This document shows, piece by piece, positions 15,635 to 38,523 of a DNA stretch of 38,523 bases; position 1 is the first letter of the stretch; each line of letters begins with the position of its first letter. A program made the position numbers and the translations under genes. Source of the stretch: Candidatus Kapaibacterium sp. (GTDB lineage Bacteria > Bacteroidota > Ignavibacteria > Kapaibacteriales > UBA4661); assembly GCA_025358765.1 (NCBI GenBank), contig JANYIG010000197.1, forward strand, positions 1 through 38,523. The letters are read 5' to 3'. A model generated the notes under the pieces. That model made no database searches. It was not told the origin of the DNA and worked only from the letters and a program-made list of their open reading frames with translations.

Positions 15635-15683
15635 TTTACTCGATAATACTCATGATTCATTCATTGTGTTTTTTGTGACGTTT

Positions 15684-16844: not shown

Positions 16845-16856
16845 GGATTTGGAGCT

Positions 16857-19010: not shown

Positions 19011-19055
19011 GCGCAAATTTTCAAATACCAAGTATCAAACAAAACAACCAAACTC

Positions 19056-20415: not shown

Positions 20416-20452
20416 GCTATTTTGCTATAAAGGCTTCCATTATTGGGGAGCA

Positions 20453-20830
20453 TTATTCGCTTGCAGATGAACTTGAAGAAGGTGCATTCGATGATGAATT
20501 CACAGGTGCAGATGCTACGCTCGACGAGGTAGATGAATCCGATGATGAATTGCTTGCGGAAGGCGCAGAGCTTGCTGCGGCATCGGAGGATGCGCTTGCG
20601 GGTTTAGTGGACGGAGCGCCAGATTTTTTGACGTAATCCGTTGAATAAAACCCATCGCCGTTAAAAATTAAACCGCTTCCACCACTGATTTTACGCTGGA
20701 CGGAGCCTTTGCCTTTTTGGGCGATCGTACACACGTTTTCGGGGCAGGTTGTGAGTTTTGCGTCCTTCATAGACTGGAACCACTCGAAATTCGCGCCGCA
20801 AGTGTCGCAATGATAATCATACGTTGGCAT
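20453..20830 (-). CDS. FmdB-family zinc-ribbon protein with Ser/Ala-rich tail
   Basis: The first about 65 residues of this 125-residue protein are an FmdB-type zinc ribbon: MPTYDYHCDTCG with Cys8 and Cys11, then Cys29 and Cys34 in TTCPENVC, and the family ending GGSGLIFNGDGFYSTDY. These small proteins may regulate or assist gene expression or metal handling; the role is unclear. The remaining 50 or so residues are almost only Ser, Ala, Pro, Asp and Asn, a low-complexity tail common in this family. ATG 20830 was chosen over a longer frame because AAGGAAGG lies just upstream and the ribbon begins there. It follows ispG by 16 bases, so the two are likely co-transcribed. Confidence 0.85.
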   Translation of the reverse strand: MPTYDYHCDTCGANFEWFQSMKDAKLTTCPENVCTIAQKGKGSVQRKISGGSGLIFNGDGFYSTDYVKKSGAPSTKPASASSDAAASSAPSASNSSSDSSTSSSVASAPVNSSSNAPSSSSSASE

Positions 20831-20846
20831 AGTAAAAACCTTCCTT

Positions 20847-22004: not shown

Positions 22005-22079
22005 AACGTGTCTATAATTTTTAAGTGTCTGTAATTTGGTTATACCGTTTGTGCTTCTTCAGAATGAAGCTGAGGTGCG

Positions 22080-23009
22080 TCAGAGTTTTTTGCTGGCATC
22101 GTAGAGCTTTTGCTTTTCGTCATCGGAAAGGCTATTGTAGCCAGTGTGAGCGATTTTGTCCAAAATGCTGTCTATTTCTTCTTGTGTGATTTCACCGCGA
22201 GTACTCGCCGCTTCGTCCGATGATGCACGAAACCACGCACGCGGGCTACGCTGTGTCGTTGTGACGGAATTAATATCATAGATTTTCCGACTCGGTGCAA
22301 TCGCCCTGCGCCTACCCGTCAACACATCTGTTATTCGGTCGAAGAACCCAAAGATGCCGAGTCTGTCGCCAAAGCGCAAGAGTAGATATCCACACAATGC
22401 GCCACCTACGTGGGCAAAATGCGCCACATTACCACCACCACCCGTGATACCAAGAATAAAATCAATCGCAATCCAGCCTAATACTAATATTTTCGCAGGA
22501 ATCGGAAAAAAAATCGGGAACATCATAATCGGTCGGTCGGGGAACATGAAACCAAATGCCAGCAAGATACCGTTGATAGAACCAGATGCTCCAACTGTTG
22601 GAGCAGCATCGCCGAGTAAATAGCTAATGCAAATATGTACAAGCGCCGCACCAATACCGCAAAGCAGGTAAAATGTCAAAAAGCGCCGTGCACCCCAGAT
22701 GGATTCAAGTTCCGAGCCAAACATCCACAACGCGAACATATTAAAAAGCAAATGCGTAAATCCACCGTGCATAAACTGATACGACAGCATTTGCCAAGGC
22801 ATAAACTCGTCACCAAGAATCGGTTGCAGCGCGAACCAATGCATTAAATACGCCTGCACTGGTACGCCACCTATTGTCAGCAAGCCCAAAAACCAATGCT
22901 GGAGCAAATACACCACAACATTTGTAATAATCAAGGCTCGGATAACGGGCGGGAAGAAACTCCGCAGACCGCCACCGCTCCCGTAGTTCGTGTAATAATA
23001 ATTTGCCAT
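22080..23009 (-). CDS. Rhomboid-family intramembrane serine protease
   Basis: This 309-residue protein has six or so transmembrane helices and the rhomboid catalytic set: HGGFTHLLFNMFALWMFG (oxyanion region), Ser142 in VGASGSINGI, and His200 in AHFAHVGGALCG. Ser-His dyads of this kind cut transmembrane substrates within the membrane. A soluble tail (about 245-309) ends EEIDSILDKIAHTGYNSL and SDDEKQKL, a short C-terminal domain typical of Bacteroidota rhomboids. ATG 23009 (MANYYYTNYG) was preferred to a TTG at 23024. It may be co-transcribed with ispG, 75 bases downstream. Substrates are unknown. Confidence 0.93.
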   Translation of the reverse strand: MANYYYTNYGSGGGLRSFFPPVIRALIITNVVVYLLQHWFLGLLTIGGVPVQAYLMHWFALQPILGDEFMPWQMLSYQFMHGGFTHLLFNMFALWMFGSELESIWGARRFLTFYLLCGIGAALVHICISYLLGDAAPTVGASGSINGILLAFGFMFPDRPIMMFPIFFPIPAKILVLGWIAIDFILGITGGGGNVAHFAHVGGALCGYLLLRFGDRLGIFGFFDRITDVLTGRRRAIAPSRKIYDINSVTTTQRSPRAWFRASSDEAASTRGEITQEEIDSILDKIAHTGYNSLSDDEKQKLYDASKKL

Positions 23010-23236
23010 TGCTTTTTTGTTCAATAATCAAGTAGGTAATTAAACACTCTGTTGTTGATTTTGAGAATGAGACGTTTTATCGTATGAAGAATTGCCGCCG
23101 ATAGGGTTCTGCTCCATACTTCTGATGTGAATTAAAAGGTGAAACCTCAATTTCATCAAAACGTAGGATGTAGGCTTCACGAACTATTCGGCGGTCAAAC
23201 AGAGAATTATTGTATCAATTCTTAGGTTGTCTCCGA

Positions 23237-24682
23237 TTAGTTTGTCTCCAAAAAATCCTCTGAAAACAGATTTGGCAGCCAATCCATGATTTTTTGTTTT
23301 TCTCTTTTGGAAAGACGGTTGCCGGAAAGCTCGAGTGTTTGCAGTTGTTGGAGGTGCTTTATTTCTTCTGGAATTGAGGTGATTTGATTGCGGTTCAGCA
23401 GCAAGAGCTTGAGGTTAACGAGTTTGCTCATATCCGAGGGAATAGAGGTGAGCTTGTTACCCGTTAGGACGCATATTTTCAGGCTTGGAAGATTACCTAC
23501 ATTTGGAAGCAATGTTTGAAGCTGGTTATCGCTCAAGTTGAGGTCTTGTAAATTCACAAGGCTATCAATTTCTGGGGCAATAGTTTTGAGTTTGTTGCTC
23601 CCCAAATCTAATGTCTGGAGCGTACGGATACGGCATATCTGCGTTGGAAACGTAGAAAGCTGATTACTACTTGCGGAAAAAGTTTTTAGCGCCTGAAGTT
23701 TTCCAAGTTCTTGGGGTAAGTCCGTGAGCTGATTAAAACTTAAAACAAGCATTTGTAGGCTATCAAGATTGCCGATTTGATGCGGGATAGACGTGAGTTT
23801 GTTGGTACTCAATTCTAAGCGTTGTAACGCCCGAAGCCCTCCGATTTCCTCTGGAAGTGTCGTCAGACGATTATTGACGAGATCAAGCGTTTTGAGCGCT
23901 GCGAGTTTGCCGATACTGCGCGGTAATGTTGTCAATTTATTATTGACCAAAACTAATGTTTCAAGATTAAAGAGGCTTCCGATACCATATGGTATTGCCG
24001 TGAGTGGGTTGTAGCTTGCATTGAGGGATTTCAGCGAGGATAGATTGCCGATTTCATTCGGCAGCACGGCAATTTTGTTTGCACTGATGTCGAAATCACG
24101 TAAATGGGGAAAGCTACTAATGCTGGTAGGCAATATAGAAATCTGATTATTACTTAACAGCAGAGCGCGTATATTGAAGAGTTTGCCGATTTCGGGCGGG
24201 AGTTCTCTGATGCGATTGTAGCTTGCGCCGAGCGTATGCAGATATACCAGATTGTCAAGATGAATCGGAAGCGATGTAAGCTGATTATTGCTAATAATAA
24301 GCGTTTGTAAGTTTTGGAGCGTTGAAAGCTGTGCCGGTAACTCAGCGAGCTGATTGTTACTCACGTCTAAGACTTGCAAATTACGGAACAGCGCAATGTC
24401 GGATGATAACGCTGAGAGTTTTTGAAAACTCAAGTTGAGTTTATAGACTTTATTCCGCTCCTTGAGTGCTTCTTTGAGCGAATAATACGTTTTTTGTTTT
24501 GCAAGCGTGGCAGAATCAAGAAGCGCTGCTTGATTCGGTTGTGGTACCGCCTGTTGCTGGGCAAAAAGACGAAAAACAGAGGTGACGATACAGACAACAA
24601 TGATGCCTATACGACGAAGCGCGGTGCGATAAAAGGATGGTGTGTGCTGACGCATGTTCTGCAATAAGCTGTAGCGCATCAT
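23237..24682 (-). CDS. Exported leucine-rich-repeat protein (sixteen 23-residue repeats)
   Basis: The N-terminus of this 481-residue protein has a signal-like hydrophobic segment (IGIIVVCIVTSVFRLFAQQ), with the mature start near residue 43. After a 45-residue helical lead-in, at least sixteen consecutive LRRs of exactly 23 residues follow the pattern LxxLxLSxNxLTxLPxxIGxLxx, for example LKTLDLVNNRLTTLPEEIG. The last repeat runs into a helical cap (KREKQKIMDWLPNLFSED). The consensus is close to the plant-type/SDS22-like class common in environmental bacteria. LRRs form a curved solenoid that binds proteins, so a periplasmic or surface binding role is likely. Starts at 24682, 24679 and 24655 are possible; 24655 gives a more typical signal-peptide length. 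Confidence 0.9.
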   Translation of the reverse strand: MMRYSLLQNMRQHTPSFYRTALRRIGIIVVCIVTSVFRLFAQQQAVPQPNQAALLDSATLAKQKTYYSLKEALKERNKVYKLNLSFQKLSALSSDIALFRNLQVLDVSNNQLAELPAQLSTLQNLQTLIISNNQLTSLPIHLDNLVYLHTLGASYNRIRELPPEIGKLFNIRALLLSNNQISILPTSISSFPHLRDFDISANKIAVLPNEIGNLSSLKSLNASYNPLTAIPYGIGSLFNLETLVLVNNKLTTLPRSIGKLAALKTLDLVNNRLTTLPEEIGGLRALQRLELSTNKLTSIPHQIGNLDSLQMLVLSFNQLTDLPQELGKLQALKTFSASSNQLSTFPTQICRIRTLQTLDLGSNKLKTIAPEIDSLVNLQDLNLSDNQLQTLLPNVGNLPSLKICVLTGNKLTSIPSDMSKLVNLKLLLLNRNQITSIPEEIKHLQQLQTLELSGNRLSKREKQKIMDWLPNLFSEDFLETN

Positions 24683-24999
24683 TATTACTGGGTTGAACGT
24701 GAATAACTTGTGCTTCCCTCGCAGCTTACAAAATAAATGCTATTGTTTGAGTACAGCAACTGTTCCGAAGTTTAAGAAATATTCGTTAGCTTTACAAGTA
24801 AAGTCTTGATAGCATTTGTGCCATCGTGTTAAAATGCAGGTCGGAGCATTGCATCAATCACGACACGTCCAACAAGAACCGAATATTGCGGGGACATTGC
24901 TTCTACCCAACCACACGGCATACATAACAAAACTGCGCTGCTCACTCGTGCCGTGAACAACGCAGTTTCAATACTTCTGGTGTCGGATATTCGGCTGAT
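24683..24999. other. Intergenic gap between LRR and rpmA genes
   Basis: No convincing gene is visible in these 317 bases. The right part holds the rpmA terminator (24930-24968). The left part is AT-rich and should contain the LRR gene promoter, but no good TTTG/TAnnTTTG pair was found. Confidence 0.6.
24930..24968 (-). terminator. Terminator of the rplU-rpmA operon
   Basis: AAACTGCG (24930-24937) pairs with CGCAGTTT (24961-24968). Read on the minus strand the stem is followed by TTTTG, and it lies 31 bases after the rpmA stop. Confidence 0.65.
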
Positions 25000-25260
25000 T
25001 TAGTTAGCAGCAGAATACACGGAGATAAATTTCTTGCCATTTTTCTTGCGTTCAAACTTTACGATGCCATCTTCCAGAGCAAATAACGTATAGTCTTTTC
25101 CAAGACCAACATTTACGCCCGGGTGGGTAGCAGTACCATTTTGACGGATAAGAATATTGCCAGCAATAACGCTTTCGCCGCCGAATTTCTTTACGCCCAA
25201 CCGCTGGGCATTAGAATCGCGTCCGTTTTTCGTAGAGCCAGCGCCTTTTTTGTGAGCCAT
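25000..25260 (-). CDS. rpmA: 50S ribosomal protein L27
   Basis: L27 lies at the peptidyl-transferase centre of the large ribosomal subunit. The 86-residue protein starts [19 protein letters not shown], without the extra N-terminal leader cleaved in Firmicutes, and continues [17 protein letters not shown] and [14 protein letters not shown], all family signatures. Length is normal. It follows rplU by 31 bases, the usual rplU-rpmA order, and a terminator follows. Confidence 0.97.
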
Positions 25261-25291
25261 GACGATTGCTTCCTTTCAGAGATAAAGATTC

Positions 25292-25594
25292 TTAGAGAGC
25301 GATATTGCTAATTTGTATTTGAGTCGTGTATTGGCGATGACCGTTGCGCTTACGGTAACCTTTACGACGTTTTTTGTGGAACACGATAACCTTTTCGGCT
25401 CTGCCGTGTGCCAACACTTTTGCTTTCACGCTACCATTGATAGCGCCAAAACTTACATTACTACCTTCGCCACCAGCAAGGACATTGGAGAAAGTGAGTT
25501 CATCACCAACATTGCCCTTGAGCAGTGGAACCGTCAGTACATCAGAGTGTTTAACTCGGTACTGGAAACCTGCGATTTCAACAACAGCAAACAT
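25292..25594 (-). CDS. rplU: 50S ribosomal protein L21
   Basis: L21 binds 23S rRNA in the large subunit. The 100-residue protein begins MFAVVEIAGFQYRVKHSD and has the C-terminal VIVFHKKRRKGYRKRNGHRQ signature that contacts RNA. Length is normal. It is the first gene of the rplU-rpmA pair. The Bacteroidota-type promoter at 25641-25672 would give a leader of about 40 bases. Confidence 0.97.
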   Translation of the reverse strand: MFAVVEIAGFQYRVKHSDVLTVPLLKGNVGDELTFSNVLAGGEGSNVSFGAINGSVKAKVLAHGRAEKVIVFHKKRRKGYRKRNGHRQYTTQIQISNIAL

Positions 25595-25955
25595 GACAAT
25601 TGTATATTTGAGGTTTTTAAGAGTTTTTGTTACAGAACTACAAACTTACATCTTTGGCGTATTTTGCACAAATATTTTTCCACATTTTTTATGAAGACAA
25701 TCATTTTGATTACAATACTTCCATTCAAATTAGGAATAATGAACAAAAATTAACCGTTCATACATTGAATACACACAAAAAATGGCACAGTTTTGTAACT
25801 GTTCAATTTCGTCTTTGTTACTCTATAGTATCTGCACTTTCTTGCTACAATTCCTTTGGGTGCATTAAGCAAAAACGAAGCATTCTGCGTCTATACCCAT
25901 TGAAAGTAAACGCTTTCGCTTGCCCTTTCAACGTTTCACGATATTTATCTACATA
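25595..25955. other. Divergent intergenic region, rplU / acyltransferase-like gene
   Basis: This 361-base AT-rich gap contains the rplU promoter near its left end. Several open frames cross it but have no domain features or start signals, and I regard them as non-coding. No clear promoter for the rightward gene was found. Confidence 0.6.
25641..25672 (-). promoter_or_regulatory. Bacteroidota-type promoter of rplU-rpmA
   Basis: On the minus strand TTTG (25672-25669), a 20-base spacer and TAAGTTTG (25648-25641) match TTTG-N17-23-TAnnTTTG exactly. It lies about 47 bases before the rplU ATG. It is one of the two full matches in the window and sits before genes that must be strongly expressed, which supports its reality. 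Confidence 0.75.
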
Positions 25956-27179
25956 ATGATTTCTACGCCTTCTTCCCTTGCATCATCGCAATTAGTATCA
26001 GCATCACCAACATTATCTGTACCATCGCGGACTTCGCAATTATGCACTGCTTCGCCACAGTCACGGTTTTATATCCTTGATTTAGTACGCCTTGTAGCAA
26101 TGGTACTCATGATGCAGGGGCACACATTAGATGCCCTTGTTGCACCACAACACCTGAGCATTGCTGATTTCCCGTGGAACATTTGGCATTTTATGCGTGG
26201 CTTAACCGCGCCGATTTTCCTGATGATTTCCGGTGCAGTGCAAGTGTTTGCTAATAAACGCGATGAAAGTGGTTCTATTGGTTTTAACCGTTATTGGAAG
26301 CAAGTACGTTGGGCGATTACGCTCATGGGTATTGGGTATTTGCTTGTGTTCCCGGCAAACCGCTTGCGCGACTTGCCATTTGTGAGTGCAGAAGGTTGGA
26401 AATTCTTTTTTCAAGTAAATATCCTTCAGCTTTCGGGGCTTATGCTTATTGGTGTAATGACGGTGATGTTTTTTACAAAGTCCACCAAATCGTTTGCACG
26501 GATAACATTCGCCATCGGTGCAGCGCTCATGATGCTTTCGCCATTTGCCTACACTATCAATTGGTTCTCTTTTTTGCCGGAAGTTGTAGCTGCGTATCTA
26601 TCGTTTGCACACGGGTCGCTGTTTTGCGTATTTCCATTTGCAGCATATATGTTCTTTGGCGTGAGTATTGGCACGTTTTTGGCGAAAATACCTACTGACC
26701 AACGTGAAATGCTTTTCCCTCGTTATGCGCTTCGGTATGGCTTTATTGCTGTGGTGTTAGGGTTAGTTGGCACATACGCTCCTGTGTCGTTTTACCCAAC
26801 TCACGATTATTATCTTGCAAGCCCGAATTTTGTGCTAATTCGCATGGGTTGTACTCTCCTGTTGATGGGTGGTTTAACCTATGTGTATCGTTTCACAAAA
26901 CGCTTTGAAGAATATTACTCGCGGCTTGGCAAAAAATCACTGTATATCTACACCACCCACCTTGTCTTATTGTTCGGAACGCCTTGGTTTGGCGGCATAG
27001 CACGAAATCACTATCGAGCATTAGATTTACCAACAGGCATGGCAATTGCTATTGCCGTCGTTGCAGGAACGCTATTGACAGCATATATGCTGGATTTTCA
27101 TCAACGCAACTCCTTAAGCATTCGCCGTGGATTACACGTTTCGCTCACAGCAATGTTGCTCTATGCATTGCTTGTGTGA
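25956..27179 (+). CDS. Acyltransferase-like multi-spanning membrane protein (HGSNAT/DUF1624-like)
   Basis: The protein has 407 residues and about ten transmembrane helices. After a Ser-rich N-terminal stretch, RFYILDLVRLVAMVLMMQGH and WHFMRGLTAPIFLMISGAV match the N-terminal pattern of the heparan-alpha-glucosaminide N-acetyltransferase-like and OpgC-like membrane acyltransferases. In these, the Asp in LDLVR, the His in QGH and the Arg in MRG are conserved. Related proteins move acetyl or succinyl groups across the membrane onto sugars. The acceptor here is unknown. ATG 25956 was chosen over the in-frame TTG at 25920. The asnB gene follows 125 bases later, an interval that holds a possible leader peptide. 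Confidence 0.72.
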   Translation: MISTPSSLASSQLVSASPTLSVPSRTSQLCTASPQSRFYILDLVRLVAMVLMMQGHTLDALVAPQHLSIADFPWNIWHFMRGLTAPIFLMISGAVQVFANKRDESGSIGFNRYWKQVRWAITLMGIGYLLVFPANRLRDLPFVSAEGWKFFFQVNILQLSGLMLIGVMTVMFFTKSTKSFARITFAIGAALMMLSPFAYTINWFSFLPEVVAAYLSFAHGSLFCVFPFAAYMFFGVSIGTFLAKIPTDQREMLFPRYALRYGFIAVVLGLVGTYAPVSFYPTHDYYLASPNFVLIRMGCTLLLMGGLTYVYRFTKRFEEYYSRLGKKSLYIYTTHLVLLFGTPWFGGIARNHYRALDLPTGMAIAIAVVAGTLLTAYMLDFHQRNSLSIRRGLHVSLTAMLLYALLV

Positions 27180-27192
27180 GATATATTTTGTA

Positions 27193-27252
27193 CACGTGCA
27201 TTGCTTCATTTCCGAGTGCCATCGAAACGATCGCTGCTCAAGGAGGCACGTG
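27193..27252 (+). promoter_or_regulatory. Inverted repeat enclosing a strong Shine-Dalgarno before asnB
   Basis: CACGTGC (27193-27199) and GCACGTG (27246-27252) form a perfect 7-bp inverted repeat. The right arm includes the end of AAGGAGG (27240-27246), the strongest Shine-Dalgarno-like sequence in the window, and the GTG at 27250. Pairing would hide part of this ribosome site. It lies 53-112 bases before the asnB start. Confidence 0.4.
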
Positions 27253-27294
27253 AACGATTTCCGTGGTGAGCGGCGCAAACCACGACAAACCTAA
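27250..27294 (+). CDS. Possible 14-residue leader peptide upstream of asnB
   Basis: GTG at 27250 opens a 14-codon frame encoding a basic peptide (MNDFRGERRKPRQT) ending TAA at 27292-27294, ten bases before the asnB ATG. AAGGAGG precedes it, but with only three bases of spacing, tighter than usual. asnB itself has no Shine-Dalgarno, so coupled translation is possible. The peptide has no run of Asn or other obvious attenuation codons. Existence is uncertain. Confidence 0.3.
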   Translation: MNDFRGERRKPRQT

Positions 27295-27304
27295 TACAAA
27301 AAAT

Positions 27305-29242
27305 ATGTGTGGATTAGCCGGAATTATTGAATATAGCGTCACCGAATCCACTATCACGCACGTATTGCTAAAGCGGATGAGCGACGAAATTGCTCACCGA
27401 GGACCTGACGATGAAGGACAGTGGCTTTCTGAAAACCACCGCGCAGGCTTCGCCTATCGCCGCCTTGCTATCATTGACCTCTCTGCCAACGGACACCAGC
27501 CTATGACCACGCCCGATGGGCGCTTCACGATTGTTTTCAACGGCGAAATCTATAATCACCGCGTACTACGCGCTGAACTTGAGGCAAAAGGGTACAAATA
27601 CCGCTCCCAATCTGATACGGAAACAATACTCTATGGTTTTGCCGAATGGGGTGAAAAAATTGTGTCAAAAATGGTCGGTATGTGGGGGCTGGCGATCTGG
27701 GACAACGATCGGCAAGAACTCTTCTGTGCCCGCGACCGTGTGGGCATTAAACCGCTCTATTACACGCTGCAAGGTGGGCGATTTGTTTTTGGTTCAGAAA
27801 TAAAGTCTATTCTTCAATGTCCGCAAATAAGCGCCGCGATGAACCTTGCGGAGCTGCCAAATTGCCTCGCTTTTTCGATGACGGGTTTTTCGACGCTGTT
27901 CGAGGGCATCCACAAACTTCGCCCCGGTCATTGGCTGAAACTAAGCAGTGACGGCACGTTGAGAATTCATGAGTATTGGAATCCATTGCAACAGGCAATC
28001 ACTAATTCACAAAACACGATGTCCGAACAGGATGTGCAGGCGGAAATCATGCGTCTTCTGCGACAGGCAGTCAAAGACCGCATGATGAGCGATGTGCCGT
28101 TTGGTGTATTTTTGAGCGGTGGCATTGATTCGAGCGTAAACGTGGCACTCATGGCGGAATTGATGAATCGTCCGGTAGATACGTTCTCAGTTGGTTTCAA
28201 AGAACATGAGGCATATAATGAGAATTTCTATGCACGGAAAGTGGCACAGTTATTTCATACGAACCACCACGAAATCTTGATTGACCATAACGATGCACTT
28301 TCCGTGTTCGAGGATCTTGCGTGGCACGAAGACGAGCCAAACGGCGACCCCGTGTGTATCCCGCTCAATTTCGTGAGCAAGCTCGCCCGTGAGGCGGGAG
28401 CAATCGTTGTGCAGGTGGGCGAGGGCAGCGATGAACAGTTTGCTGGTTATCGCTGGATGCACCGCGAACTCAAGTTTTATCACGGTTGGTGGAAGATGTA
28501 CGGTGCAGCACCTCAGTTCATGCGGTCGCTGGCGTACAACGCGGCAAAACCCTTATTTCTGAGCCGTCAACAGTATTTGGCGCTGGATTACATGCGGCGT
28601 GGAACAGAAAATGATGAATTGTACTGGGGTGGCGCTGTTGACCTAACGCCCGTACATTTAAAGGCTCTTTTTTCGGCAGATTTTCAGTATCTTGCGGATT
28701 CGCCACCGCGCTTTCCGAAGCACATTCACAACGATATTCTTGCACGAATGCCAAACGCAGACTATTTGCAGCGTATGGCGTATTTTGAATTTAGCCATCG
28801 GTTGCCGGAACTTCTGCTGATGCGTGTCGATAAAGTTACAATGGCACATGGAATCGAAGCGCGTGTCCCGTTTCTCGACCACCGTTTGGTGGAGTTCACA
28901 ATGACGCTGCCAGAACGCATGAAGATTCCTCGCTACGCCTCACAAGGCGGCGAAACCAAACATTTGCTAAAAAAAACGGTTGAATCGCTGTTGCCACACG
29001 ACATCATTTATCGCAAAAAACAAGGCTTCGCCGCACCCGTCGGCGAATGGTTCCGCGCACCGCTTAAATCCTACTGGGAAACGACGGTGTTGGAGTCTGC
29101 GCTTGTGAAAGACGGCATCTTTGACAAACAAGCACTCACGCAATTTTTCAACGCGCATGTTTCTGGCAAACGCAATTTTGGGAAATCGCTCTACGCATTG
29201 ATGAACCTTGCGTTATGGCATAAACGCTTCATCAAAGGGTAA
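27305..29242 (+). CDS. asnB: Asparagine synthase (glutamine-hydrolysing)
   Basis: AsnB makes asparagine from aspartate, ATP and glutamine. The protein has 645 residues. The N-terminal class II amidotransferase starts MCGLAGIIEYS, where Cys2 becomes the nucleophile after Met removal; this fixes ATG 27305 as the start against an in-frame GTG at 27263. HRGPDDEG, FNGEIYNH and SDTETILYGF are conserved glutaminase motifs. The synthetase half has the PP-loop VFLSGGIDSSVN and KKTVESLLPH. The size and the C-terminal part fit AsnB relatives often found with envelope glycan genes, which may amidate other substrates. It starts 125 bases after the acyltransferase-like gene; the Gly-rich membrane protein gene follows 17 bases after its stop. 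Confidence 0.93.
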   Translation: MCGLAGIIEYSVTESTITHVLLKRMSDEIAHRGPDDEGQWLSENHRAGFAYRRLAIIDLSANGHQPMTTPDGRFTIVFNGEIYNHRVLRAELEAKGYKYRSQSDTETILYGFAEWGEKIVSKMVGMWGLAIWDNDRQELFCARDRVGIKPLYYTLQGGRFVFGSEIKSILQCPQISAAMNLAELPNCLAFSMTGFSTLFEGIHKLRPGHWLKLSSDGTLRIHEYWNPLQQAITNSQNTMSEQDVQAEIMRLLRQAVKDRMMSDVPFGVFLSGGIDSSVNVALMAELMNRPVDTFSVGFKEHEAYNENFYARKVAQLFHTNHHEILIDHNDALSVFEDLAWHEDEPNGDPVCIPLNFVSKLAREAGAIVVQVGEGSDEQFAGYRWMHRELKFYHGWWKMYGAAPQFMRSLAYNAAKPLFLSRQQYLALDYMRRGTENDELYWGGAVDLTPVHLKALFSADFQYLADSPPRFPKHIHNDILARMPNADYLQRMAYFEFSHRLPELLLMRVDKVTMAHGIEARVPFLDHRLVEFTMTLPERMKIPRYASQGGETKHLLKKTVESLLPHDIIYRKKQGFAAPVGEWFRAPLKSYWETTVLESALVKDGIFDKQALTQFFNAHVSGKRNFGKSLYALMNLALWHKRFIKG

Positions 29243-29259
29243 TCATAATTTTCATACTG

Positions 29260-30792
29260 ATGCAGATTTCTATGACCTTTACCCCAACCATTACCACTCA
29301 GCGATTCTACCGATTGCTCTTGTTTGTTCTTGTAACATTGGTATGCTCTTTGCCAATGATGGCGCAAGAAACTCAAGTGCCGATGGATACGGAAGGCAGA
29401 GTAATGATCATAACAGCGGAATCGGAGCAAACGTATCGACTTTTTCCAGAATATCCTGGTTTTCTGGAAGCACGGCTGTTTCAGGCGGTAGATTCTTCGT
29501 TTACGTTAGAAATCACACAAACGATAAATGGTCAAACACAACGTTTACGCAAAGCTGTTACGCTTGCCGAAGTACAAACCCTTCGCCTCCGCGTAAGCGC
29601 CATTTACCAATCTGTACCGACGCTTGACCCAGAGCAGAATTTGAGCGGATGGGAAAGAACTTCCGTTGCACTGGCGGCAGGCTTGTTTGGATTGGAATAT
29701 GGATTGATTGCGGATTTAGCTTCCACACCTTATTCTTCTCGTTATAGTTCTGTTGGAACGTGGACAATTCTTACCCCACTTATCTATGCTGGCGGAACAA
29801 TATGGGCTTCCAATGAGCCGTGGTTCACTCGTTCATCGTCGCAAATGCTGACGAATGGTTTGACCTTGGGTTTTGTACACGGGCTTAGTCTGTACGGACT
29901 TGTGGCAGGAGAGAGCCAAACAAGTCCGGGTGCGGTTTGGGGAACAGGTATTCTTGCTGGCGCTGTGGAAGGTTTTAGCACCATGCGATTACCGGAAAAA
30001 TTAGGGCTAAATTTGGGACAAACCACTGTGCTGACAAGTCTTGGCTTCTCTGGGCTTCTTGCTGGTATTTTGGTGCCTGCCACGCTCGGAGCATTTGACG
30101 GCAACGGCTGGACGGCACGCGGTGCAAGCGCTTCCGTACTGGCGATGTCTGTTGGTGGGTATTGGTTAGGCTATCGTCTTAGTCAGTCACAATATTTTGC
30201 TGGTGGTGACGGCGTTGTTTTTTCAACACCAGCTTCATTGGGGTTATTTTTGCCCGTTTCTGTTGCATTAGTTGCTAATTCATCATCATTTGACGGAAAG
30301 ATTATTGCTGGTCTCAGTTTGGCAACGCATGTACTCGGATACGTGATCGGCAATTCGTTAATCAACAACAAAGATTTTACGTTTGACCAAGGGCGTGCAA
30401 TCTCAACTGCTACGGGGTTGGGTACATTGGCAGGGCTTGTTGCACTCTATGGCGCACGCAATAATGAAAGTCTGTTGAGAGCTTCTCCACTGATTACTAT
30501 TTTGGGCGGCGCAATCGGTTTTGCTATCGCATATGGAGCACATTCAGCCGAAGCCAAACTCAACGCACAAGTTCGCCAAGCTGCTCAGGGTGGTCGTTCG
30601 TCGTTATACAGCGATGATTCGTGGTTTGAGCGCTTTGCTCATAACGCCGATGTACAGTTTTGTCCGGTAGGGCTATTGGGGATGGCGGCTCCCACGCTTA
30701 TTCCGACGGGTCTGACGCTGCCTATCCTGAACATGCGCTATACCTTTGGTCAGACGGGCAAGCAAGCGCAAACCGATGAACACGATGAATAA
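29260..30792 (+). CDS. Hypothetical Gly-rich multi-spanning membrane protein
   Basis: I do not recognise this 510-residue protein. A signal peptide (about 15-36, FVLVTLVCSLPMMAQE) is followed by a soluble region of about 90 residues that includes TLAEVQTLRLRVSAI. Then come about ten Gly/Ala-rich hydrophobic segments from residue 130 to 470 (such as GLFGLEYGLIADL, SGLLAGILVPATLG, LSLATHVLGYVIGN, GLGTLAGLVALYGA) and a polar tail. The density of small residues and GxxxG pairs resembles tightly packed helices, but long hydrophobic beta-strands are not excluded. ATG 29260 is used; ATG 29272 is possible. It starts 17 bases after asnB, so it is probably co-transcribed with it. Confidence 0.72.
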   Translation: MQISMTFTPTITTQRFYRLLLFVLVTLVCSLPMMAQETQVPMDTEGRVMIITAESEQTYRLFPEYPGFLEARLFQAVDSSFTLEITQTINGQTQRLRKAVTLAEVQTLRLRVSAIYQSVPTLDPEQNLSGWERTSVALAAGLFGLEYGLIADLASTPYSSRYSSVGTWTILTPLIYAGGTIWASNEPWFTRSSSQMLTNGLTLGFVHGLSLYGLVAGESQTSPGAVWGTGILAGAVEGFSTMRLPEKLGLNLGQTTVLTSLGFSGLLAGILVPATLGAFDGNGWTARGASASVLAMSVGGYWLGYRLSQSQYFAGGDGVVFSTPASLGLFLPVSVALVANSSSFDGKIIAGLSLATHVLGYVIGNSLINNKDFTFDQGRAISTATGLGTLAGLVALYGARNNESLLRASPLITILGGAIGFAIAYGAHSAEAKLNAQVRQAAQGGRSSLYSDDSWFERFAHNADVQFCPVGLLGMAAPTLIPTGLTLPILNMRYTFGQTGKQAQTDEHDE

Positions 30793-30883
30793 TAGTCTGT
30801 GTCTTGTCCAAAGTGTGCTTCCGATTTTGAAATGAAAGTAAGTGAGATTTTTGCAAAATAACGTAATCCGCAACTGATTGAGT

Positions 30884-33643
30884 ATGGTACAAGATGACAG
30901 TATGAGTATCCCAACGAACGAACTTCCCAAATCTTACACGCCCGCCCACAGCGAGCAAAAATGGTATGCCGAGTGGTTGGAGCGCAAGTATTTTAAGACT
31001 TCGGACGATTCCCCGAAGCCTGCGTACAGCATCCTTATGCCCCCGCCAAACGTGACGGGGATTTTGCATTTTGGGCATATTCTTAACCACACAATTCAAG
31101 ATATTTACATCCGTTGGAATCGGATGCGAGGTGCTGAATCGTGCTGGTTTCCGGGTACGGATCATGCTGGTATTGCTACACAAACCCGCGTGGAAAAAGA
31201 ACTCGCCAAAGAAAAAATTTCACGGTACGATTTGGGGCGTGAGAAGTTTCTGGAGCGTGTGTGGCAATGGAAAGAGCAGTACGGCGGCATTATTTTGAAA
31301 CAACTCCACGCTCTCGGCAACTCCAGCGATTGGGACAGAGACTTGTTTACGATGGATCCATCCGCTTCCCGCGCAGTTCAGGAAGTCTTCATCCAGCTTT
31401 TTGATGAAGGGTTAATTTATCGCGGTAAGCGCATCATCAACTGGTCGCCGCTTGCTATGTCTGCCCTATCGGATGAGGAAGTACAGTTCCGCGAGGTTCG
31501 GGAATATATGTACACGCTGCGCTATCACTTTGAGGACAGTTCGGGAACGTTGCTCGTGGCAACGGCGCGTCCTGAAACTTTGTTTGGCGACGTGGCGGTG
31601 GCGGTGAATCCGGACGACGAACGGTATAAACATTTGATTGGCAAGTTCGTTCGTGTGCCGCTTGCAGGGCAGCTCGTGCCGATTATTGCGGATGAATACG
31701 CCGACCCAGCATTTGGAACGGGTTGTGTGAAAATAACGCCCGCGCACGACCCGAATGACTTCCTTGTGGGCGAACGGCATGGCTTGGCAATGCCAAACAC
31801 AATGAATCCAAACGGCACACTGAACGAGCTTACAGGCGTGTTTAATGGTATGGAGCGCTTTGCAGCACGGAAGGCAATCGTTGAAAAGCTGCAAGAATTG
31901 GATCTCGTCGAAAAAATTGAAGACTACACACACAACGTCGGTTTTTCGGAGCGCGGCGGTGAGCCAGTAGAGCCGTATTTAAGCGATCAGTGGTTTGTAC
32001 GGATGAAGCCGCTTGCAGAGCCAGCATTGAAGGTGGTTCGGGATGGCGAGATTACATTTTATCCTGAACATTGGGTGAAAACCTACGAGAACTGGATGAC
32101 GAACATACGCGATTGGTGCATATCGCGCCAGCTCTGGTGGGGACACCGCATCCCCGTGTACTACGCGCCCGATGGGCGATTCACAGCAGCGCGTTCGGCG
32201 GAGGAAGCTCGCACGAAGCTAAACATAGCGCCGGACGTAGAATTAGTGCATGATGCAGACGTGTTGGATACGTGGTTTTCGTCGAACATCTGGCCTCTGA
32301 CCACGATGGGCTGGGACGGAACGTCTGCAACCCAGAACACGCCGACGATGCAGAAATTTTTGCCGACAAATCTGCTTGTGACTGGACCGGATATTATTTT
32401 CTTTTGGGTAGCGCGGATGATCATGTTCACGCTGAAGTTCAAGGGCGTGATACCGTTCCGCGACGTGTATTTCACAAGTATCATCCGCGACGGCAAGGGT
32501 CGGAAACTCTCTAAGTCGCTTGGAAACTCGCCTGACCCGCTTGGCATTATCGAAAAATATGGCACGGATGCCATGCGTTTTACGATGATTAACGCCGCGC
32601 CAATTGGACAGGATGTCCGGCTTGCCATCAACGAAAAGACGCAAGACATCGAAGCGGTGGAGCTTGGTCGGAATTTTGCGAATAAAGTCTGGAATGCTGC
32701 TCGGTTCCTGATGATGAAGCGCGAAGAGGCGTATGCTGATATGAACCCGCTTGAACGTTCGCTTTCCGCAAGCATTCTTCAGCCAGCATCGTTCGATGTG
32801 TCGGATGCGTGGATTGCTGCTCGGTTTCACCAAACCATAGCCGACACGCAACGAATGTTAGAAACATACAAACTAAACGAGTATTCACGGACGATGTACC
32901 AGTTTATCTGGAACGATTTTTGTGATTGGTACGTCGAAATTGTGAAAACTCGCTTGTACAATAGCAGTGACAAAAAATACAACCAAGCGCTTGTGAACTT
33001 TGCTCTGAGCCTGTTCGATGGCGTGTTGCGCTTGCTGCATCCGATTATGCCATTTGTGACGGAAGAACTTTGGCAAGCAATTTCCCAACGTGCTGACGGT
33101 GAGAGTATTTGTATTGCGCCCGTGCCAGAGTTTGACGCTGCGACGGCAACATCAAAGGCGCAGTTGCAAGCAATAGAGAGCTTCGAGCGTGTACAAACGC
33201 TGGTGGAAGGCATCCGTGCGCTGCGTGGTTTGATGAATATTCAGCCACACGAAAAATTACCTGTCGTCGTGAACGTTGCCGACGCAGCGCTTGCAGAAGT
33301 TTTTGTATCGCAAGAGCGCGTGATTGCAAACCTTGCAAAAGCCTCTGCGTTCCACGCAAGTGTTGGTGCGGTAAAGCCAGAAGGCTCCGTATCGGCTGTG
33401 CTGCCGGGCTTGGAGATTTTTGTAGTAGTTAAAGACGTGATTGACGTAGAAAAAGAGCGCTTGCGCTTGGAGAAAGAATTTGTGCGGCTTGAAGGGTTGG
33501 GAAAATCGGTGGAGGCAAAACTTGCTAACGAAAAATTTGTTACCAACGCCGCGCCAGACCTTGTGGAGTATGAACGCGAAAAACTCCGCAGCGCACAGGA
33601 TTCAATGGCTAAAATTCGTGCGAATATTCAGGAATTGGTGTAA
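30884..33643 (+). CDS. valS: Valyl-tRNA synthetase
   Basis: ValS charges tRNA-Val. The 919-residue class I synthetase has the HIGH-type motif as HFGH (62-65) in PPPNVTGILHFGHILNH. The CP1 editing domain (VATARPETLFGDVAVAVNP) removes mischarged threonine. The DWCISRQLWWGHRIPVYY segment is present, and the KMSKS motif reads KLSKS (541-545) in RKLSKSLGNSPDPL. An anticodon-binding helical domain follows, and the C-terminal coiled-coil arm (EKERLRLEKEFVRLE) is intact. Starts at 30884 and 30902, or a TTG at 30878, are all possible; none has a clear Shine-Dalgarno. The toxin-antitoxin pair begins 19 bases after its stop. Confidence 0.96.
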   Translation: MVQDDSMSIPTNELPKSYTPAHSEQKWYAEWLERKYFKTSDDSPKPAYSILMPPPNVTGILHFGHILNHTIQDIYIRWNRMRGAESCWFPGTDHAGIATQTRVEKELAKEKISRYDLGREKFLERVWQWKEQYGGIILKQLHALGNSSDWDRDLFTMDPSASRAVQEVFIQLFDEGLIYRGKRIINWSPLAMSALSDEEVQFREVREYMYTLRYHFEDSSGTLLVATARPETLFGDVAVAVNPDDERYKHLIGKFVRVPLAGQLVPIIADEYADPAFGTGCVKITPAHDPNDFLVGERHGLAMPNTMNPNGTLNELTGVFNGMERFAARKAIVEKLQELDLVEKIEDYTHNVGFSERGGEPVEPYLSDQWFVRMKPLAEPALKVVRDGEITFYPEHWVKTYENWMTNIRDWCISRQLWWGHRIPVYYAPDGRFTAARSAEEARTKLNIAPDVELVHDADVLDTWFSSNIWPLTTMGWDGTSATQNTPTMQKFLPTNLLVTGPDIIFFWVARMIMFTLKFKGVIPFRDVYFTSIIRDGKGRKLSKSLGNSPDPLGIIEKYGTDAMRFTMINAAPIGQDVRLAINEKTQDIEAVELGRNFANKVWNAARFLMMKREEAYADMNPLERSLSASILQPASFDVSDAWIAARFHQTIADTQRMLETYKLNEYSRTMYQFIWNDFCDWYVEIVKTRLYNSSDKKYNQALVNFALSLFDGVLRLLHPIMPFVTEELWQAISQRADGESICIAPVPEFDAATATSKAQLQAIESFERVQTLVEGIRALRGLMNIQPHEKLPVVVNVADAALAEVFVSQERVIANLAKASAFHASVGAVKPEGSVSAVLPGLEIFVVVKDVIDVEKERLRLEKEFVRLEGLGKSVEAKLANEKFVTNAAPDLVEYEREKLRSAQDSMAKIRANIQELV

Positions 33644-33866: not shown

Positions 33867-34131
33867 TGTTCACTACACCAAGCGCTTTTTGAAGGAACTT
33901 GCCAGCCTTCCTGCAAACCCTCGGAAGAAAATTGAGAAAATTGTTTTTGATGAATTGACAAAAATCAATGTCGCAGAATTAGGGTATGTGCAAAAAATGA
34001 GTGGTTACAAGGACAAATATAAAATTCGGGTTGGAGAGTATCGGATCGGGCTAACGATTGATGTAACGGATCGGACAATAAGCGTTGAGCGCGTTGCCCA
34101 TCGAAAAGAAATCTATCGGATATTTCCATGA
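33856..34131 (+). CDS. RelE/ParE-family toxin
   Basis: This basic 91-residue protein has the RelE/ParE fold pattern: MPYSVHYTKRFLKELASLP, a helical hairpin with basic residues (NPRKKIEKIVFDEL), then the beta-sheet YKIRVGEYRIGL and the ending VERVAHRKEIYRIFP. RelE-type members cut mRNA on the ribosome and ParE-type members poison gyrase; sequence alone cannot tell which. The ATG overlaps the antitoxin stop by 11 bases, and the stop overlaps the TlpA-like ATG by 4 bases (ATGA at 34128-34131), so three genes are translationally linked. Confidence 0.85.
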   Translation: MPYSVHYTKRFLKELASLPANPRKKIEKIVFDELTKINVAELGYVQKMSGYKDKYKIRVGEYRIGLTIDVTDRTISVERVAHRKEIYRIFP

Positions 34132-34628
34132 AACGTATTGTTTGCAGCCTATTGTTTTTTCTGTGCTGTGGCCAAATATTCGCCCAAAAGCTCGCATCTG
34201 TACCAGTTGTGACTTTTGAGCAATTTGAGGCTCTTATTCAACCAAGCGCCGATACGGTTAAAGTCATAAATTTCTGGGCAACATGGTGCAAACCGTGTGT
34301 GGCGGAAATGCCGAGTTTTGAGCGTTTGCAGAAAGAATACGGCACAAAAAGCGTTGCTGTCATGCTTGTGAGTCTTGATTTTAAGCGCGACCTCGAAAAA
34401 CGTGTTATGCCGTTTGTGCGCGGGCGAAAGCTGCAATCGCGTGTGCTGTTGCTCGACGGCGGCAACCCCAATGCGTGGATAGACCGCGTGAGCAAAGATT
34501 GGTCGGGTGCGATTCCTGCGACCGTTATTATACCTCGCTCCGGCGGCATGAAGACAAGAATCTTTCACGAAGGCGAATTGACATTTGATAGTCTCGTAAC
34601 AAAAATTCAACCACTGCTTGCAAAATAA
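34128..34628 (+). CDS. TlpA-like exported thioredoxin-fold protein
   Basis: The signal peptide (1-19, IVCSLLFFLCCGQIFAQ) sends this 166-residue protein out of the cytoplasm. It has the redox motif WCKPC (Cys54, Cys57) in VINFWATWCKPCVAEM and the cis-proline loop GAIPATVIIP. TlpA/ResA-like proteins reduce or shuffle disulfides of exported proteins, for example in cytochrome c maturation. Its ATG overlaps the toxin stop by four bases, an odd partner for a TA module. A second thioredoxin-fold gene follows 79 bases later. Confidence 0.9.
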   Translation: MKRIVCSLLFFLCCGQIFAQKLASVPVVTFEQFEALIQPSADTVKVINFWATWCKPCVAEMPSFERLQKEYGTKSVAVMLVSLDFKRDLEKRVMPFVRGRKLQSRVLLLDGGNPNAWIDRVSKDWSGAIPATVIIPRSGGMKTRIFHEGELTFDSLVTKIQPLLAK

Positions 34629-34707: not shown

Positions 34708-35322
34708 ATGAAATCTCTTTTTGTGTTCATTTTCGCGCTTGTTTTTACGGGTGCTGTTGCGAATACTGTCTTTGCCGCTGACGGCTACTCCGTAGGAAGT
34801 GCGGCGCGTGATTTTACGCTCAAAAACGTGGATGGCACAATGGTATCGCTTAAAAATTACTCTGATGCCAAGGGTTTTATTGTGGTATTTACATGTAATC
34901 ACTGCCCGTTTGCAAAGGCGTACGAGGAGCGTATTATTGCGCTGCACAAACAATTTGCGCCGAAAGGGTATCCGGTAGTTGCTATTAATCCAAATGACAC
35001 CAAAGCCTCGCCTGAAGATTCGTTCGAGAACATGGTACAACGTGCAAAAGACAAAAAATTCCCGTTCGCCTATGTGTTCGACGATACGCAGGAGATAGCT
35101 AAAACCTACGGTGCGACTCGCACACCGCATATTTACTTGCTCAAGAAAAATGCCGAGAAATTGGAAGTGGCATACATCGGCGCGATAGATGACAACTCCG
35201 AGGACGCAAAAGCCGTAAAGGAAAAATATGTGGAAAGCGCTCTTGCCGCACTTATGAGCGGTCAAGCACCAGCGGTAAACTCGACGAAAGCGATTGGCTG
35301 CACGATTAAATGGAAGAAATAA
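34708..35322 (+). CDS. Exported thioredoxin-family protein (CNHC motif)
   Basis: This 204-residue protein has a signal peptide (1-23, ending ANTVFA) and an AhpC/TSA-redoxin-type fold. The start DFTLKNVDGTMVSLKNYSD leads to the active site FTCNHCPFAKAYEERI with Cys63 and Cys66. The ending TKAIGCTIKWKK is a conserved tail in this family, which is common in Bacteroidota and Planctomycetes and has no assigned role; peroxidase or disulfide reductase activity is inferred. A good Shine-Dalgarno (TAAGGAG) precedes ATG 34708. TAGCTTTG at 34648-34655 resembles a -7 box, but no -33 box is present, so co-transcription with the TlpA-like gene is also possible. Confidence 0.88.
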   Translation: MKSLFVFIFALVFTGAVANTVFAADGYSVGSAARDFTLKNVDGTMVSLKNYSDAKGFIVVFTCNHCPFAKAYEERIIALHKQFAPKGYPVVAINPNDTKASPEDSFENMVQRAKDKKFPFAYVFDDTQEIAKTYGATRTPHIYLLKKNAEKLEVAYIGAIDDNSEDAKAVKEKYVESALAALMSGQAPAVNSTKAIGCTIKWKK

Positions 35323-35652
35323 GGCAATAGTTCGGGTAATCGGATTTTGGATTGCGAAATTTATTTCGCCTCTGTTCTTGCAAATACCGGCAATACTTTA
35401 CTTTATGCAGAATAAATTCTGCACTCCGCGGTGTAGCAATATCCAAACTATTGTAAGCGCAAGATTAAATTTAGTGGGGAGTGTGGAAAACCATGACTTT
35501 TAGTCATGCCAAATTCTGACCGCTCGGCACTTTTACAGAACTCTTTATTTCCGCATATTTGTATTGTTCAAAAGTGTCTTGAACATTCATAACCATCAAT
35601 CATATACCAACGATAACAACCATAGTTTTTTTGTTTCATTAAGGATAATTGT
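35323..35652. other. Intergenic region with three short hairpins
   Basis: These 330 bases hold no convincing gene. Three tight palindromes occur within 154 bases. They are GCGAAAT-TT-ATTTCGC (35354-35369), TGCAGAAT-AA-ATTCTGCA (35406-35423) and CATGACT-TTT-AGTCATG (35491-35507). None has a T-run after it, so they are not classical terminators. AAGGATA (35641-35647) is the ribosome site of the giant repeat protein gene. Confidence 0.65.
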
Positions 35653-38523
35653 ATGAAAACACGTTTTTCTCTTCTTTTATTTGCCCTTGTGCTTGCGCTC
35701 ACTGCAAGCGCCACCACACTGAGGGCGCAGTTTACTTCTACAGCCGGCGGGGCTTGGAATACCTCTGGTGGAGGTTCACCATGGGGTGCTGCATCTGTAC
35801 AATTCCCGGGTCAATCTAGCGGCAATGGCACTGTCACTATTAGCGGTGCTGGTCCATATATCTATACAAATCTGCCAGGATTGCCAATTACATCGTTAAA
35901 CCTAACGCAAACAGGCTCGGTAACTTTGCAGGGTCCTGGGTTGCTTGCGATAAATGGTGCTTTAACCGTGGGAGCTGGCGGCTTGATTATTGATGTTGGT
36001 CTAACGGTTCAAGTAGATGGTGTTCTGACCTTAAATGGACCAATCACTCTTAACGCTACTGCTGCTGGTAGGGGGAAGTTGATTGTTAATGGTACGATTG
36101 TGACTGGAACAGGAGCAATCACTGCTGGAGCATTCACCAATCCAAACTGGGGTGAGGTAGTATTTAATGGCTCCGTAAACGCTAGTCAAATTCCCGGCTC
36201 CCTATTTGCGGCGAATTATGTTGGTTTGATTACCACGAACTCTCCAATGACGTTGACTTCCAGTTTGGCCCTTGGTGCTACGGGTGCGTTGAATCTTGGC
36301 GGTCAGTTGACCGTTGCGGCGAATACGCAATTGGTCATACCGAATACGAATACGACAGCTGCAACGGGTGGTCCTGGATTACAAGGCGCTGGGACGCTCC
36401 AAGGCGCAAGTTCCACAAGCGCTGTGAATTTGCCCACCGGCTTCAATGCCAATACTATTCCCGTCACTAGCTTTGCCTCACCCTACAACGGGACGCTTAT
36501 CACCGGCGTGGGTGCAGCAATGACATTGAATGGATCGCTCACCATCGGCTCTACGGGCATCCTCATACTTGGGAACACGCTTACCGTGCCAGCTGCGTCA
36601 ACACTTACGCTCAACAATACTGCTTCTGCCTCAATAAAGGCAATCAACGCTACGCCACCGGCATCTATTGTCGGCGCAGCAGCAACCGCAAATGTTGTGC
36701 TTGGTCCAGGGTTTAATGGTAGTACTATCGAACCGAAATTTTTCACCAATCCTTTTGTTGGAGCACTTCAAACAAGTGGTGCGTTGACTGTTTCGGCGAC
36801 GGCAGCTACTGGAACATTGGTTTTGGGTGCTAATGGCACAATCGCTCTGGGTGGCGATCTGACCGTCAGCGCAAATAATACGTTGACGATTAACAATACC
36901 GCAACGGCTATTAGTGGTTCCGGCAAAGTGCAAGGCGTGGCAGGTACTCCTAACAACGGTACATTTGCTCTGGGTAATGCGGCGAATGCGAACGTGATTC
37001 CTGCACAAAACATTGCAAACCCCTATAATGGCACACTGCAAACGGGTACAGGTCTTGCTACAATGAATGCGAGCCTAACGATGGGTGCAACATCAATTAT
37101 GAATTTGGGTGCGAACCTAACTGTAGCTGCCGCACAAACATTGACGCTGAATATGACGGGTGTTGTTGCTACATCGTTCCCGGGCGCATTCACGGTTGAT
37201 GCTGCTGCGGGCGGCACAATTATCATGGGTACAGGTTCCTTTGGAAATTTGATTCCGGCAGTGAAGATTGGTGCGGTACCCGGCACATTGGCAAGTGGCA
37301 CATTGCAAATAGATGGAGCGAATGCTCAACTTCCAACAGCCCCTGCAAATAACTTAACGATTGCTGCTCCTGCTACTCTGAGAGTAACGGGGTTGTTTAC
37401 GATAGGGAGTACTCGCAGCCTGATTTTGAATAACACAGGCGCGAATACGCTGACGGGTGCTGGTACGCTGCAAGGGCAGGATGGGACGGCAAAAGTTGTT
37501 CTTGGTAATAACTTCAATTTAAACTCATTGCCCGGCGCAAACTTCGCAAACCCGTTCAATGGTTTTATTGACGGCACTGCGCTAACCGCAGGCATAACAT
37601 TGGCTTCAAACCTTACGATGGGCAATTCCGGTATTTTGGGATTGGGTACCCAACAAATGATAATCACAAGCGGGGCTGTTGCTCCATTGCCCGTTGTACT
37701 CACACTGAATATGACCACCCCTGCGGCAACGGCGCTTCCTGGTACGAATGTTGCGATGTTTGCGAGTTCAGGCGCACCGAACAATGCTACCATCGTGATC
37801 GGTAACAGTACTTTCGGCGGCGTGTATCCTGTAGGCGGTGCCAATGGTGTAAATGGCAACTTTGGTGGTATTATTCAAGTGGGATCTGGCTTGAATGTTA
37901 ATGCCGCATACACTGTTTCTGGTACAACCGTACTTAATCTTACGGCTCCGCTCACGGTGAATGGGGTGACATTGAGTTTGAACAACACCGCAGCAAATGC
38001 TTTGACCGGCACAGGTACGCTGACTGCTGCGAATAACCTCGGCATTGTGAGTCTGGCATCTGGCTTCAATGCGGGCAATATTCCGGGCGCTCGTTTTACG
38101 GTGCCATTCAATGGAACGCTACAAACGAACAGCGCAATGACGCTCGCATCCAACTTGACCATCGGAACGACAGGAGCTTCAACAGGTGTTTTGGACTTGA
38201 CTCTCGGCGGTAACTTGACAGTAGCAAATGCCGTAACATTGACACTTAACACTGCTGCTGCTGAAACCATATCTTTACTTCCGAATGCTGCAACTCCGAA
38301 CATTACTGGACCAGTAGGTTCGACCATTGCGCTTGGTCCAGGTGCTATAAACGGTATCATTCCTATAGGTGGTACACTTGGGCAGGGTCGTATCGCATCG
38401 GGTTTTGCGGGTACACTATCTCTTGCAAATGCTCTATCATTTCCATCGGTAGCCGCGATTTCATCGCCAGCGTCGTTCAATTTACAAGGGACGGTAACGG
38501 TTCCGGCAGGAACCAACCTCACA
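35653..38523 (+). CDS. Giant secreted repeat protein, N-terminal 957 residues (partial)
   Basis: The frame runs open from ATG 35653 to the end of the window, 957 codons without a stop, so the gene continues beyond it. AAGGATA precedes the ATG. A signal peptide (1-26, LLLFALVLALTASAT, ending LRAQ) is followed by GGAWNTSGGGSPWG, a pattern seen at the start of Bacteroidota surface proteins. From about residue 60 the chain is strand-rich and built of Gly, Ala, Thr, Asn, Leu and Val with very few charges and no cysteine. From residue 167 a unit of 85-99 residues repeats about nine times. A beta-helix or beta-solenoid adhesin or S-layer-like protein is the likely fold. The C-terminus is outside the window, so a sorting signal cannot be checked. 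Confidence 0.85.
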   Translation, partial: MKTRFSLLLFALVLALTASATTLRAQFTSTAGGAWNTSGGGSPWGAASVQFPGQSSGNGTVTISGAGPYIYTNLPGLPITSLNLTQTGSVTLQGPGLLAINGALTVGAGGLIIDVGLTVQVDGVLTLNGPITLNATAAGRGKLIVNGTIVTGTGAITAGAFTNPNWGEVVFNGSVNASQIPGSLFAANYVGLITTNSPMTLTSSLALGATGALNLGGQLTVAANTQLVIPNTNTTAATGGPGLQGAGTLQGASSTSAVNLPTGFNANTIPVTSFASPYNGTLITGVGAAMTLNGSLTIGSTGILILGNTLTVPAASTLTLNNTASASIKAINATPPASIVGAAATANVVLGPGFNGSTIEPKFFTNPFVGALQTSGALTVSATAATGTLVLGANGTIALGGDLTVSANNTLTINNTATAISGSGKVQGVAGTPNNGTFALGNAANANVIPAQNIANPYNGTLQTGTGLATMNASLTMGATSIMNLGANLTVAAAQTLTLNMTGVVATSFPGAFTVDAAAGGTIIMGTGSFGNLIPAVKIGAVPGTLASGTLQIDGANAQLPTAPANNLTIAAPATLRVTGLFTIGSTRSLILNNTGANTLTGAGTLQGQDGTAKVVLGNNFNLNSLPGANFANPFNGFIDGTALTAGITLASNLTMGNSGILGLGTQQMIITSGAVAPLPVVLTLNMTTPAATALPGTNVAMFASSGAPNNATIVIGNSTFGGVYPVGGANGVNGNFGGIIQVGSGLNVNAAYTVSGTTVLNLTAPLTVNGVTLSLNNTAANALTGTGTLTAANNLGIVSLASGFNAGNIPGARFTVPFNGTLQTNSAMTLASNLTIGTTGASTGVLDLTLGGNLTVANAVTLTLNTAAAETISLLPNAATPNITGPVGSTIALGPGAINGIIPIGGTLGQGRIASGFAGTLSLANALSFPSVAAISSPASFNLQGTVTVPAGTNLT
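36151..38523 (+). repeat. About nine diverged 90-residue repeats in the giant protein
   Basis: Units start near residues 167, 257, 351, 436, 522, 614, 713, 799 and 892 of the protein. Each begins with a strand such as VVLGxxFNxxxIPG, followed by PFNGTLQT, MTLxSNLTIGxxGxLxLG and LTVAxxxTLTLNNT, often then GxGTLQG. Spacing is 85-99 residues. Identity is low at DNA level, so the repeats are old. Confidence 0.7.

Follow-up and report, generated by a model that had tools for sequence, protein, structure and literature searches.

A giant repeat protein of uncultured Kapabacteria with a predicted beta-solenoid and a T9SS sorting domain, a candidate component of a surface coat

The window analyzed here, a stretch of 38,523 nucleotides from Candidatus Kapaibacterium sp., ends within an open reading frame that encodes long repeats, which raises the question of what the complete protein looks like, where it is delivered and what it might do there. 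The frame (957 aa) is open at the end of the window, where contig C69 of a 4.86-Mb draft genome stops as well. An exact overlap of 141 bases, with no second site in the genome, connects this end with the beginning of contig C185, and in-frame joining of the two contigs yields a complete protein of 1,960 aa (Table 1). This join is backed by the alignments of the orthologues, which continue through it uninterrupted. The complete protein contains no Cys and no His, and 5.2% of its residues are charged. The earlier note on this DNA, which was made from the window alone, described a giant cysteine-free repeat protein of at least 957 aa, and this observation is confirmed for the completed gene. The near absence of charge that was also reported holds for the window half (D, E, K and R together 2.6%) but is weaker in the C-terminal half (7.6%). 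The lack of Cys is not strictly kept in the orthologues, which contain 1–3 such residues.

Table 1. Features of the giant gene and its surroundings. Plain positions are those of the window; positions preceded by L003 are those of contig C185 (G000:C185).
Feature	Position	Strand	Basis or remark
TlpA-like thiol-disulfide oxidoreductase gene	34128..34628	+	
Thioredoxin-like/redoxin gene	34708..35322	+	conserved upstream neighbor
CATATTTG, one mismatch to the Bacteroidota -7 promoter element TAnnTTTG	35554..35561	+	consensus match only
Giant gene, codons 1-957 of 1960	35653..38523	+	remainder: L003:142-3153
Signal peptide, likely Sec/SPase I (MKTRFSLLLFALVLALTASATTLRA-Q), no lipobox; residues 1-26	35653..35730	+	by eye; N-terminus conserved in orthologues; cleavage site inferred
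N-terminal region (W..GG..FPGQ..NG.VTI), solenoid cap/start, residues 27-127	35731..36033	+	conservation, structure model
Repeat unit 1 (aa 128-218)	36034..36306	+	
Repeat unit 2 (aa 219-309)	36307..36579	+	
Repeat unit 3 (aa 310-402)	36580..36858	+	
Repeat unit 4 (aa 403-488)	36859..37116	+	
Repeat unit 5 (aa 489-581)	37117..37395	+	divergent
Repeat unit 6 (aa 582-667)	37396..37653	+	
Repeat unit 7 (aa 675-766)	37675..37950	+	divergent
Repeat unit 8 (aa 767-854)	37951..38214	+	
Repeat unit 9 (aa 855-947)	38215..38493	+	divergent
Repeat unit 10, beginning	38494..38523	+	
Repeat units 10-12	L003:112-873		
Short domain after the repeats	L003:874-~1434		
TIG/CoaZ domains	L003:~1435-2811		
T9SS type A CTD	L003:2917-3150		
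Stop codon of the giant gene	L003:3151-3153		
Terminator-like stem-loop, 15 pairs, between the giant gene and glyS	L003:3207-3240		
glyS ORF	from L003:3249		

Twelve units of 82–93 aa occupy residues 128–1201, and the nine that lie wholly inside the window (86–93 aa) correspond to the approximately nine repeats of 85–99 residues originally counted there. In leave-one-out profiles, the individual units score 38–98 bits, whereas 500 shuffles of that region never exceed 21.7 bits, and the repeat is therefore far beyond chance. A profile search, named in the earlier note as a check that could refute the novelty of the unit, placed it in no described family of Pfam, NCBIfam, PHROGs or the PDB sequences. 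Specifically, the PDB sequence search returned chance matches only, and the repeat half remained unmatched in Pfam and NCBIfam up to E = 1, the autotransporter-associated beta-strand repeat (PATR and kin) included. The C-terminal half, in contrast, contains approximately five Ig-like domains that belong to the TIG/CoaZ repeat family (NF058597, CoaZ_rpt_PGGG, 1.4e-30), whereas the 90-residue unit lies outside the coverage of this model. Across the genome, there are 143 NF058597 domain matches, and contigs C58, C142, C201 and C330 encode proteins of 1,500–2,400 aa with long arrays of such TIG-like domains, more than 20 in a single frame.

For the window part together with five orthologues, AlphaFold predicts a beta-solenoid (mean pLDDT 77.8, pTM 0.66) composed of short strands, mostly 6–8 residues apart, with one longer loop per unit; in the model of an orthologue, the solenoid part reaches a pLDDT of ~90. 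A Foldseek search of the PDB with the solenoid model gave no significant match (E 0.1 or weaker). Nevertheless, when the top Foldseek chains were aligned with VIA-align, Z values of 13.0 for Ag43b, 11.9 for TibA, 11.6–12.1 for Ag43 and 11.4 for EtpA were obtained, with further beta-helices represented by an Antarctic bacterial antifreeze protein (3p4g, 12.3), AlgE4 (10.9) and PL6 (9.7). A right-handed parallel beta-helix fits these values, which can arise for any beta-helix and do not imply common descent. The assignment of the repeat to the beta-solenoid class is a well supported prediction; this fold class is already known, and what is undescribed is the family of sequences and how it is deployed. 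The C-terminal half of the orthologue model is similar to proteins with tandem Ig/IPT domains, among them chains 9flp and 9flw of GhpA, the grappling hook protein of Aureispira, which is likewise a very large Bacteroidota protein with tandem domains. This match, however, involves generic Ig-like domains, and GhpA is not known to have a 12-unit solenoid of this sequence family.

The presence of beta-helix enzymes and of the Antarctic antifreeze protein among the fold neighbors could indicate an enzyme or a ligand-binding helix, similar in type to polysaccharide lyases, epimerases or ice-binding proteins, in which active or binding faces are repeated. We consider this very improbable given that Z values of this magnitude are not specific to any one kind of beta-helix, that the Pfam and NCBIfam scans matched no enzyme family, and that charged residues are scarce and His is lacking in the repeat half. 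The calcium-dependent antifreeze helix binds calcium via acidic residues, whereas Asp accounts for just 0.8% here.

The N-terminus of the giant protein looks, by eye, like a typical Sec signal peptide and is conserved in the orthologues. The C-terminus of the completed gene, where the earlier note had proposed to look for a sorting domain, matches both T9SS type A models above their cut-offs (PF18962, Por_Secre_tail, 33.6 bits against 27; TIGR04183, 30 bits against 23); these matches extend to the last residues, and a type A CTD was detected in the orthologues as well. The genome, in which approximately 140 type A sorting-domain matches were found, encodes on contig C303 both SprA (TIGR04189, 523 bits against a cut-off of 200) and the PorU sortase (NF033707, 801 bits against 420). 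The SprA_N model (PF14349) had no match in this genome, but it matched none of the controls either and is thus uninformative, whereas the full SprA model decided the matter. Because the sorting domain coincides with SprA and PorU in the same genome, export through T9SS is well supported, and sequence signals accordingly support the deployment of the protein on the cell surface. Together with the predicted solenoid and the lack of a described family, the tag favors the original suggestion that the unit represents a new surface beta-solenoid repeat. In the type A pathway as reviewed, cargo is attached to lipopolysaccharide (PMC10202324), and by analogy the giant protein would be attached in the same manner.

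The same genome contains a tandem, same-strand run of T9SS-tagged proteins of 390–630 aa (contig C174, ~13000–31800), most of which are 45–75% identical in the C-terminal ~90 residues and differ in the remainder, that is, a cassette-like cargo cluster with one common sorting tag.

The export route separates the giant protein from its closest fold neighbors. Ag43, TibA and EtpA have a right-handed parallel beta-helix ectodomain, as is predicted for the giant protein (Z 11–13), but depend on type V export with a beta-barrel or a TpsB partner, whereas here a type V C-terminal beta-barrel translocator is absent and the C-terminus consists of TIG domains, a putative stalk, followed by the T9SS tag; the ~90-residue unit also differs from the units of these proteins. 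The T9SS of Flavobacterium delivers gliding-motility adhesins (PMC10202324), so that a T9SS cargo of this kind might be a moving adhesin comparable to SprB or RemA. This interpretation seems very improbable, considering that SprB has a type B CTD, in contrast to the type A domain of the giant protein, and that none of the profiles found here links the latter to SprB or RemA.

The unit profile matches eight of the nine other genomes sampled from this GTDB family, the one without a match being 70% complete, and, marginally, one of the 70 other genomes of the order; at E <= 1e-5, it matches 4 of 395 genomes sampled across the phylum, every one of them from this family (Kapabacteria relatives). 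Judging from these profile matches, the repeat sequence family appears so far to be confined to a single GTDB family, and the named carriers are Kapabacteriales bacterium Clear-D13 (deposited as Ignavibacteria bacterium) and Candidatus Kapaibacterium MAGs. Among the genome contigs, a scan with the window part alone had no match, and a scan with an alignment of the orthologues identified five named loci. None of the viral contigs searched had a match, and hence there is no phage link. The full-length orthologues, from two genera, are ~1,900–1,950 aa long and 35–39% identical to the giant protein, and exactly twelve units are present in the giant protein and in all four related copies counted. 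A larger paralogue of ~3,080 aa, in which 14–16 units can be detected, shares the TIG domains and the CTD of the giant protein. In the genome of the window, contigs C56 and C288, which do not overlap, bear fragments of a further repeat protein that are likely to be the local counterpart of this paralogue, split by the assembly.

The gene neighborhood is conserved too: in six of eight related loci, the orthologue is located directly upstream of glyS, and in several a thioredoxin-like gene is found on the opposite side, as in the window. An exact TAnnTTTG element precedes the start codon by 84–129 nt in all six orthologues tested. In several orthologues, this promoter-like element is followed by a hairpin near the presumed 5' end of the mRNA, with mostly weak z-scores; the Rfam search found no RNA family in the region.

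Codon choice was compared with that of the ribosomal proteins, with correction for amino acid content, using small background sets (9–20 genes per genome) and a ranking among 86 frames in the genome of the window. By this measure, the giant gene has a ratio of 1.089 (z 7.1) and is surpassed among the 86 frames just by its own C-terminal part taken alone and by the repeat paralogue on C56, which shows the strongest ribosomal-like bias of all frames compared (1.237, z 15.8). In three relatives, the ratio is 1.094–1.150 (z 9–11) for the glyS-linked orthologues and 1.14–1.235 (z 17–20) for the ~3,080-aa paralogue; the means for the ribosomal proteins of the same genomes are 1.06–1.15. No bias was found in the T9SS giants of 4,500–5,600 aa (0.97–1.00). 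Codon bias is an indirect proxy, but these values suggest that the giant protein and the ~3,080-aa paralogue are highly expressed in each of the four genomes, and that the giant protein could be among the most abundant of the cell, as would be expected of a surface coat. Copies of the giant gene also occur away from glyS, in G007 (C32, L110) and G005 (C50, L108); the L110 copy has twelve units and lacks codon bias (0.963), suggestive of a duplicated, weakly expressed version.

Considering the fixed length, the conserved locus, the terminator-like site, the codon bias of two paralogues, the uncharged solenoid, the Ig stalk and the T9SS tag, we favor, at about even odds, an abundant lipopolysaccharide-anchored structural coat, S-layer-like or in the form of a dense fiber layer, built on the undescribed solenoid repeat. 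The sequence signals, the export genes, the fixed array of twelve units, the orthology and the codon bias were read from the data, and the solenoid is predicted, whereas the function and assembly of the coat, its anchoring chemistry and its abundance are what we infer. Under this model, PorU would remove the C-terminal tag, after which the protein would be attached to lipopolysaccharide; next to the membrane, the Ig/TIG domains would serve as a stalk, and the beta-helix of twelve units, with its small uncharged residues, would project outward or lie within the layer. Along with its similarly built paralogue of ~3,080 aa, the giant protein would be produced in very large amounts, and the two would constitute an S-layer-like lattice or a dense layer of fibers. 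The Pfam and NCBIfam scans of the protein detected no known S-layer anchoring or assembly domain, in place of which the T9SS sortase would provide the anchoring.

A precedent for such a pair exists in Tannerella forsythia, where the S-layer consists of TfsA and TfsB, both of them large proteins exported as T9SS cargo (PMC4175972, PMC10202324). These are large abundant surface proteins with a signal peptide and a T9SS CTD, as the giant protein and its paralogue would be, but without the signal peptide they measure ~133 and ~151 kDa before glycosylation, whereas the proteins described here are 1,960 and ~3,080 aa long and combine a beta-solenoid with a TIG stalk. The proposed likeness is one of the way of working rather than of family membership.

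A fibrillar adhesin would have just such a build, with a solenoid carried on an Ig stalk, and this is the main rival to the coat, although we consider it rather unlikely. Under this scenario, a rigid solenoid rod on its Ig stalk would bind particles, other cells, such as bloom cyanobacteria, or sister cells, and would be strongly expressed without forming a closed coat. The fold neighbors Ag43b, TibA, Ag43 and EtpA are self-associating adhesins, the combination of a solenoid, Ig repeats and a surface tag is usual for adhesins, and the orthologue-bearing Clear-D13 genome comes from a Dolichospermum enrichment (PMC7714850). However, a codon bias at or above that of ribosomal proteins in two paralogues exceeds the need of most adhesins, and twelve units were found in every copy counted, whereas the length of an adhesin stalk is often variable. 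Furthermore, no known adhesive domain was found in the Pfam and NCBIfam scans, even though the TIG stalk is present and the solenoid itself could be adhesive.

Extending the coat model to the entire lineage, we tentatively propose, with somewhat less than even confidence, that this GTDB family covers its cells with a two-component, T9SS-exported beta-helix coat of conserved length (twelve units plus the ~3,080-aa partner), a solenoid-based type of S-layer. If this is true, the T9SS-built S-layer of Tannerella would be joined by one of a second kind. As far as literature searches show, the surface coats of the uncultured Kapabacteria are undescribed, and what is new here is the complete architecture and export route of the protein, its constant number of twelve units, its restriction to a single GTDB family and its expression signature. 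The evolutionarily fixed copy number of the ~90-residue unit could serve as a length ruler, and the unit profile can be used to annotate giant proteins that are as yet unnamed in these genomes.

Several other genes of the window deserve mention. A leucine-rich-repeat protein (23237–24682, minus strand) resembles several type III effector LRR models below the cut-off, which probably reflects the shared repeat only. Three consecutive two-component genes (12194–19010) encode a hybrid histidine kinase, a response regulator-histidine kinase fusion and a PnpS-like kinase. Finally, an asparagine-synthase-type amidotransferase (27263–29242), similar to the XrtA/PEP-CTERM amidotransferase but below the cut-off of that model, is perhaps part of an exopolysaccharide locus.
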